A DNA stretch of 64,000 nucleotides from Caulobacter sp. NIBR1757. GTDB lineage: Bacteria > Pseudomonadota > Alphaproteobacteria > Caulobacterales > Caulobacteraceae. The notes beneath the pieces are model-generated. The model worked only from the letters and a program-made list of their open reading frames with translations. It searched no databases and was not told where the DNA came from. Location: NCBI RefSeq assembly GCF_027912495.1, contig NZ_CP115463.1:2379501-2443500 (forward strand), in the 5' to 3' direction. The translations under genes were made by a program, and so were the position numbers. Shown piece by piece: positions 9,963-58,746 of this stretch; position 1 is the stretch's first letter, and every line of letters starts with the position of its first letter.

Positions 9963-10232
9963 ATGAATATGTCTAGACATATTCATTTTCGCCGGTTTTG
10001 CCGCTGTCGTATCGCTGCGACGTTTACGACGGGCGTCTGTAGGGCGAGCGCCCGCAAACGCCCCAACAATCCCCGCCGCCCGGCCTACGCGACCCCTACG
10101 CCGGGACCCACATTCCCCGCGCCTCGGCCAACAGCCCAGGCACATTTCATCAATGATTTCAGCGACCGGCGGCTCGCCATACCCTCTCGCCGCCTGTGCG
10201 CGGGGTATAATGGTAGGCCGCTTCGATAGGCC
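9963..10232. repeat. Intergenic repeat family, copy 1 of 3
   Basis: Non-coding element filling the gap between convergent genes. The left end is a perfect 24-bp palindrome (9963-9986) with core AATATGTCTAGACATATT. The right end has TATAATG (10206) and GCCGCTTCGATAGG (10217-10230). The interior is C-rich with the words CCTACG and GACCCACA. It shares both ends, length and orientation with the elements at 26144 and 58468. The interior matches copy 2 best: ACCCACATTCCCCGCG here, ACCCACAATCCCCGCG there. Function unknown. Confidence 0.75.
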
Positions 10233-26143: not shown

Positions 26144-26425
26144 AATAATATGTCTAGGCATATTCATCGTCTGTGACGCCCCTCCAACGCCGTGGCAGGC
26201 CACAGCGCCGCGGCCGTAGGTCGCTTCGTGGGCCTGGGCGACCCACAATCCCCGCGCATCGACCTACCCATCGACCTACGCTCCGACCCACGACCGCGTG
26301 ACGCCGGCCCACGCAAAAGCCCACGGGCCATGGCTTTGGGCCCGCGTCGCGCGGTCCGCGAAAGACGTCGCTTGTTTTTGTGGGTCGAGCGGCGGCGGTA
26401 TAATGGCCTGCCGCTTCGATAGGCC
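26144..26425. repeat. Intergenic repeat family, copy 2 of 3
   Basis: Lies between convergent genes. The left end is the palindromic box with one change in the core (ATATGTCTAGGCATATTCAT). The right end has TATAATG at 26399 and GCCGCTTCGATAGG at 26410-26423, finishing three bases before the next stop codon. The interior contains near-tandem 12-mers (CATCGACCTACC, CATCGACCTACG, CTCCGACCCACG) and GTGGGTCG at 26380, complementary to CGACCCAC upstream, so a folded structure is possible. A small GGGGT-AAA-ACCCC hairpin (26113-26125) precedes it. Confidence 0.75.
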
Positions 26426-58467: not shown

Positions 58468-58746
58468 TGAATATGTCTAGACATATTGCGGCGGATGATG
58501 GCGCCTGAACGGCCGCATTCCGCCGCCTGACGGCTTTTCGCCAGCGCGTCAGACCCACCTTGTCGCAAGCCGCTCCCCCGGTCGCCCTACCATCGGCCCA
58601 CCTAAGCCCCACCCTCGCCCCTCCCGCCCGCCGCCGGCGCCCCCCGTTCAACCCCTTGCGCCGTCGGACAAGGGTCGCCGGCTGGTGGCGGAATCGGCGG
58701 TTGCGAAGCCCGGGTGGGGTATAATGATCCTGCCGCTTCGATAGCC
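58468..58746. repeat. Intergenic repeat family, copy 3 of 3
   Basis: Begins eight bases after the hydrolase stop. The palindromic core AATATGTCTAGACATATT is at 58470-58487; TATAATG at 58720; GCCGCTTCGATAG at 58732-58744. Interior is C-rich (CGCCCTACCATCGGCCCACC) and only weakly like the other two copies. The tonB terminator follows 35 bp further on. The 374-bp gap holds no gene. Confidence 0.72.

Follow-up and report, generated by a model that had tools for sequence, protein, structure and literature searches.

A family of about 100 intergenic elements with predicted HutC operators and helically phased interiors in a Caulobacter chromosome

Results

An unnamed element family in the chromosome

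The 4.47-Mb chromosome of the Caulobacter strain analyzed here (G000) carries about 100 copies of a previously unnamed intergenic element of ~270 bp, in which constant ends enclose an array of short words, and the distances from the array to either end step by about one helical turn. The window, a 64,000-nucleotide stretch, comprises bases 2,379,501–2,443,500 of the single-contig, 4,470,728-bp genome. About a quarter of the genome sequence was read directly, whereas motif counts are from genome-wide pattern searches; gene calls were made with a small Markov-model caller trained in this analysis.

A first-pass annotation of the window had described a three-copy element with no matching named family. 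All three copies were found, each with a left palindrome and a right end (Table 1), and the family is indeed unnamed, but three is an underestimate by far. A genome-wide search with the right end TATAATG(N)CCGCTTCGATAG gave 28 exact hits, whereas its reversed control gave 0, and a looser right-end pattern gave 71. The left palindrome AATATGTCTAGACATATT has 72 exact matches, or 96 when up to three mismatches are allowed, again against 0 for the reversed controls. Matches to the element ends are thus far above chance. The majority of the first 50 exact palindromes are paired with a right end 227–309 bp away; several of the remaining exact palindromes come with a variant right end or occur in different settings, hut among them. 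The family total of about 100 counts further variant copies besides the exact matches, and because some copies were located through end matches, degenerate copies are under-counted.

Table 1. Positions of the three element copies in the window (window coordinates).
Feature	Position	Strand	Remarks
Copy 1 left palindrome AATATGTCTAGACATATT	9966..9983	.	exact; identical to inferred HutC operator
Copy 1 interior	10038..10133	+	inverted GTAGG at 10038; phased YC[TCA]AC words at 10063, 10084, 10095, 10107, 10128
Copy 1 right end TATAATGGTAGGCCGCTTCGATAG	10206..10229	+	3' end of opposing gene 20 bp beyond
Copy 2 left palindrome AATATGTCTAGGCATATT	26147..26164	.	one mismatch
Copy 2 interior words	26215..26384	+	26242, 26263, 26275, 26287, 26308, 26320
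Copy 2 inverted GTRGG words	26215 and 26379		within interior 26215..26384
Copy 2 right end TATAATGGCCTGCCGCTTCGATAG	26399..26422	+	
Copy 3 left palindrome AATATGTCTAGACATATT	58470..58487	.	exact
Copy 3 interior, degenerate array	58554..58613	+	words at 58554, 58586, 58597, 58608
Copy 3 right end TATAATGATCCTGCCGCTTCGATAG	58720..58744	+	

The annotation had staked its proposal on the existence of further copies, in this genome or in relatives, and on a conserved spacing between the ends, and neither was contradicted when the genomes were searched and the spacing was compared across copies. Its claim of a constant end-to-end length has to be modified: the ends are constant, whereas the lengths step by about one helical turn. 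In the window, the distance from palindrome start to TATAAT is 240 bp in copy 1, 252 bp in copy 2 and 250 bp in copy 3. The selection on ends and size that had been suggested is supported by the constant ends together with these quantised distances.

Several copies depart from the common plan. A variant class (G000:C1:2504128, 1485826, 3222535, 3353076, 3822121, and locus L081) has the right end TGCTATAATGGC, GGTGG/GGTAGG words in the opposite orientation and an AT-rich stretch; the HutC palindrome is present except in 3822121, and palindrome–TATAAT distances are similar to those of the main family. Two mosaic copies (645388 and 664393 of the same chromosome) have, upstream of the left palindrome, an additional inverted sequence that resembles a right end (CTTATCGAAGCGGC...CCATTATCCC), and the copies at 2107560 and 2469665 have a common left end, TCGTCCCTACAGCCTAGACATATT, with the left half of the palindrome replaced.

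The left palindrome is a predicted HutC operator

HutC regulons have been reconstructed in Caulobacterales (PMC5343134). In G000, a palindrome copy without a right end is located between hutF and hutI, and the exact 18-mer is found in this divergent hutF/hutI promoter not only in G000 but also in the congeners G014, G074, G078 and G081, where the 18-mer is kept and the surrounding intergenic DNA is different. A further relative, G017, contains a single palindrome copy, which adjoins hutH and hutF/hutC. Six species retain the exact 18-mer at hut promoters, and G000 encodes no UTRA-domain protein other than HutC. Based on these two observations, the left palindrome is very probably a HutC operator, as predicted from this phylogenetic footprint. 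The footprint argues well for recognition of the palindrome by HutC, and we infer that HutC also binds at the elements. To our knowledge, about 95 sites for one pathway repressor would be unprecedented, which speaks against this reading.

In a minority of copies, the left end is a different palindrome, close to ATTTTACCCGGGTAAAAT and equally distant from TATAAT (218 or 209 bp). Since these copies lack the HutC palindrome and keep both array and right end, HutC is not essential to the element. Orthologous palindromes are sometimes not intact (loci L109 and L083). At another locus (L265, G000:C1:2820001-2832000), tandem ACCCGGT-type sites at ~2824940-2824993, with half-sites related to the ATTTTACCCGGGTAAAAT-type palindrome, precede a small operon whose products we take to resemble GIY-YIG and DUF2239 proteins; these tandem sites are a possible source of the second left-palindrome type.

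The interior is a helically phased array

When 63 copies are aligned, the ends prove constant and the interior consists of an array of words. YC[TCA]AC[AG] words are placed at 0, +21, +32, +44, +65 and +77 (spacings of 21, 11–12, 12, 21 and 12 bp). An inverted GTRGG word precedes the first of them by about 25 bp, and one subfamily has another inverted GTRGG word just upstream of TATAAT. The two linkers flanking the array vary independently of each other, and both are quantised. Palindrome-to-array distances are 84, 94–97 and 105 bp (R=0.81 at 10.6 bp), and array-to-TATAAT distances are 57, 68 and 80 bp (R=0.83 at 11.6 bp). With jittered nulls, R never exceeded 0.43, and the phasing is significant (p<0.001) even when each distance is counted only once. 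Steps of one helical turn would be natural for protein bound on one face of the DNA and are hard to explain for an RNA.

The annotation had also suggested a structured RNA, and some of the changes in the inverted GTRGG/CCYAC words do match (z=3.3 within length classes). The matching changes of the R1-F1 stem are in part due to the likeness among all words within an element, the third pair of the candidate GTRGG/CCYAC stem is mispaired in about half of the copies, and R1-F1 was rejected because pair 3 fails. In addition, interiors fold only weakly better than shuffled sequence, to the same degree on either strand (z about -0.7), and an Rfam scan of the window returned two tRNAs and no family matching the element. 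Together with the phasing at the DNA level, these results make a structured RNA or small-RNA family highly improbable. The quantisation of the linkers by about one helical turn and the absence of a strong RNA fold point to double-stranded DNA as the functional form.

A phased interior, a position at gene 3' ends and wide spacing would also suit a wrapping site for gyrase or a nucleoid protein, comparable to BIME-2, in which the palindrome is incidental. Gyrase motifs span about 130 bp with a 10.75-bp periodicity, and BIME-2 elements are gyrase targets (PMC6379681). The strongest AT period in the array is 14.25 bp (F1-30 to F1+90) rather than 10.75 bp, the array words are sequence-specific, and the exact HutC operator and TATAAT would be left unexplained, so that we regard such a site as improbable.

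The copies were inserted and are old

Right-end matches occur in G000 and five congeners among the 75 genus members searched, with 20 exact matches in G014, 16 in G074, 9 in G078, 3 in G081 and 1 in G092; several of the relatives' genomes are drafts. A scan of a genome collection with the right end matched contigs named Caulobacter sp. RYN_457 and Caulobacteraceae bacterium PMG_203. Outside the genus, the right end had no match among 299 genomes from the order, and the viral contigs searched had no element match.

Comparison of orthologous loci shows that the element was gained locus by locus. G000 and G014 carry the element at the copy-3 locus, where the junction is short and empty in ten other congeners. 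The purD locus holds two different versions of the element in G000 and G014 and is empty in G074, G076, G078 and many others, whereas the copy at 770766 is common to G000, G078 and G081. As judged by these empty sites, the copies were inserted. No clear target duplication was seen at the two loci inspected, where the relatives are too diverged to fix the junctions. Between G000 copies, the best interior identity is 76% and the median 58%, against 55% for shuffled sequence; the 76% maximum equals the between-species level at the shared 770766 locus. The copies are thus old and have been kept, with the strongest constraint on the ends. The annotation's alternatives of a regulator site or a non-autonomous element agree with the operator footprint and with the insertion into sites that are empty in relatives.

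The empty sites and the locus-by-locus gain are what a dormant non-autonomous mobile element without host function would leave behind, whether MITE-like or resembling a single-strand transposon, with the ends reflecting the needs of its mobiliser and the orientation reflecting insertion into one replication strand. In line with this, Y1_Tnp genes were detected in 6 of 6 element-bearing genomes tested, as compared with 2 of 8 without right ends. The ends could in part mirror a mobiliser's needs. Neutral decay, however, would predict neither exact ends around interiors that have fallen to 58% identity nor linkers quantised by helical turns, and recent copies are absent. A Y1 transposase as the mover was rejected: none of the four Y1_Tnp matches in G000 has the element on its flanks, and other inverted repeats adjoin at least two of them. 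Two Y1_Tnp regions (G000:C1:3921873-3922508 and 4178780-4179578) have their own inverted repeats, unrelated to the element (GGGGACACGCACCATTTTCC; GGGGACAGGT...ACCTGTCCCC). On balance, we consider a dormant element without function unlikely, though it is the most serious of the alternatives.

Copies are biased in position and orientation

Full copies lie between convergent genes in 29 of 69 cases (42%), as compared with 122 of 721 gene pairs in general (17%). The remaining contexts are ++ (17), -- (16), -+ (6) and one unresolved, and divergent placement is accordingly rare (6/69). The convergent setting noted in the annotation is therefore correct for the three window copies and does not extend to the family as a whole.

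Two readings in terms of the neighboring genes have to be weighed against these contexts. In a regulated promoter cassette, TATAAT would drive the right-hand gene, the array would provide activator sites, and HutC would repress from a distance. TATAAT is near-invariant, the right gene usually starts 38–87 bp downstream in the ++ cases, and one subfamily has TTGTAG 16 bp upstream. The right-hand gene is oppositely oriented in 45 of 69 full copies, there is no constant -35 box, and no conservation was detected downstream of GATA in the 63-copy alignment, all of which makes a promoter cassette improbable. In a Rho-dependent terminator, the C-rich, G-poor array strand (48% C, about 20% G) would form a rut site behind the left gene, and the element does often lie directly behind a co-oriented gene (29 +- and 17 ++). 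Nevertheless, 22 of 69 copies have no co-oriented left gene, and the stepping of both linkers by helical turns belongs to the level of DNA, so that a terminator is very unlikely.

Along the chromosome, the 96 mapped copies are over-dispersed (CV 0.76 versus 0.83–1.20 for a null that ignores the intergenic constraint), with a smallest gap of 8.6 kb. Element orientation agrees with the local four-fold-site GC skew at 81 of 96 loci (p=4e-12), and the sense skew is -0.30 in genes co-oriented with the element and -0.06 in counter-oriented genes (p=1.5e-33). A skew limited to the element neighborhood was ruled out, since the effect reaches at least 12 kb and is seen on both gene strands. The parS sites place the origin near 75 kb (cluster at 75–76.6 kb), and a simple switch of orientation at origin and terminus was rejected, as orientation follows the local skew instead. 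The skew flips over tens of kb and departs from the two replichores expected from parS; because it lacks a replichore pattern, past inversions are a likely cause, and the assignment of a lagging strand is presumptive. In the region G000:C1:3620001-4420000, the four-fold-site skew reverses at intervals of a few tens of kb rather than once per replichore. A lone parS-like site is located at G000:C1:2331699, far from the origin cluster.

The observed agreement between orientation and skew would be expected of a mobile element that inserted into lagging-strand DNA, for which IS200/IS605 provides a precedent (PMC6006769). With element orientation and GC skew matched in this way, strand-specific insertion or selection becomes open to testing.

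Discussion

Based on these observations, we tentatively favor, at somewhat less than even odds, an inserted and retained REP/BIME-like element on which a HutC-anchored wrapped or looped complex would form over an outward TATAAT box. Elements of ~270 bp would have entered intergenic sites in one Caulobacter clade, typically right behind stop codons, and selection would then have retained the inserted copies. Each copy would be an assembly site on double-stranded DNA and not an RNA gene: (i) the left end would be a repressor operator, for HutC in most copies and with the second palindrome in a minority; (ii) the phased YC[TCA]AC[AG] array would line up bound protein along a single face of the helix; and (iii) the right end provides the TATAAT box and the fixed downstream sequence CCGCTTCGATA. 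HutC and an array-binding or wrapping protein might then close a loop or wrap over the outward-facing TATAAT, which might act as a promoter, and this loop or wrap might restrain topology and transcription at gene 3' ends, as in REP/BIMEs. The quantisation on both sides of the array may be taken as a sequence-level sign of a selected nucleoprotein complex within a repeat family.

If HutC binds the elements, the clade would offer a natural example of a repressor dedicated to one pathway that has about 95 additional operators, which would either titrate HutC or give it a genome-wide role; HutC, the histidine-catabolism repressor and a local metabolic switch protein, may thus act chromosome-wide. 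A bolder proposal, which we think rather improbable, is that HutC has taken on an architectural role across the chromosome: about 95 operator-bearing elements, at least 8.6 kb apart and oriented according to local strand polarity, would form wrapped complexes anchored by HutC, and these would mark or hold topological domains coupled to the histidine/urocanate state.

Comparison with known systems

The element departs from REP/BIMEs, MITEs and CIR elements in at least one tested feature each. As with MITEs, it is short, non-coding, intergenic and inserted, with empty sites in relatives, but its two ends are different sequences rather than terminal inverted repeats and there are no near-identical copies. 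With the CIR elements of Caulobacter crescentus it shares the genus and a strictly intergenic position. CIR elements (Chen and Shapiro 2003, cited in PMC10969869) are characterized by CcrM (GANTC) sites in inverted repeats; measured against that description, the element is set apart, as inspection of AATATGTCTAGACATATT and TATAATG..CCGCTTCGATA finds no GANTC. Gyrase sites and BIME-2 likewise combine phased sequence with gene 3' ends, but the element has sequence-specific words and lacks the 10.75-bp AT periodicity.

REP/BIMEs with TnpA-REP (RAYT) resemble the element in being many-copy, extragenic and mostly at gene 3' ends, and in a link to chromosome organisation, which is proposed here for the element. 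The GT[AG]G and C[TC]AC words of the element also resemble REP guide "feet" (PMC6006769). It differs in having neither a canonical short hairpin nor inverted REP pairs: a REP-type GT[AG]G foot on a short, fully paired hairpin was not found, R1-F1 having a 30-nt span, a long center and a z of -0.66. Nor was a REP-like cognate transposase flanked by the same repeat encountered, and the element in turn has a predicted operator for a host repressor, together with its helically phased array. Finally, compared with the HutC regulon, the element palindrome is the same operator as that at hutF/hutI, whereas the elements adjoin unrelated genes, mostly at their 3' ends.
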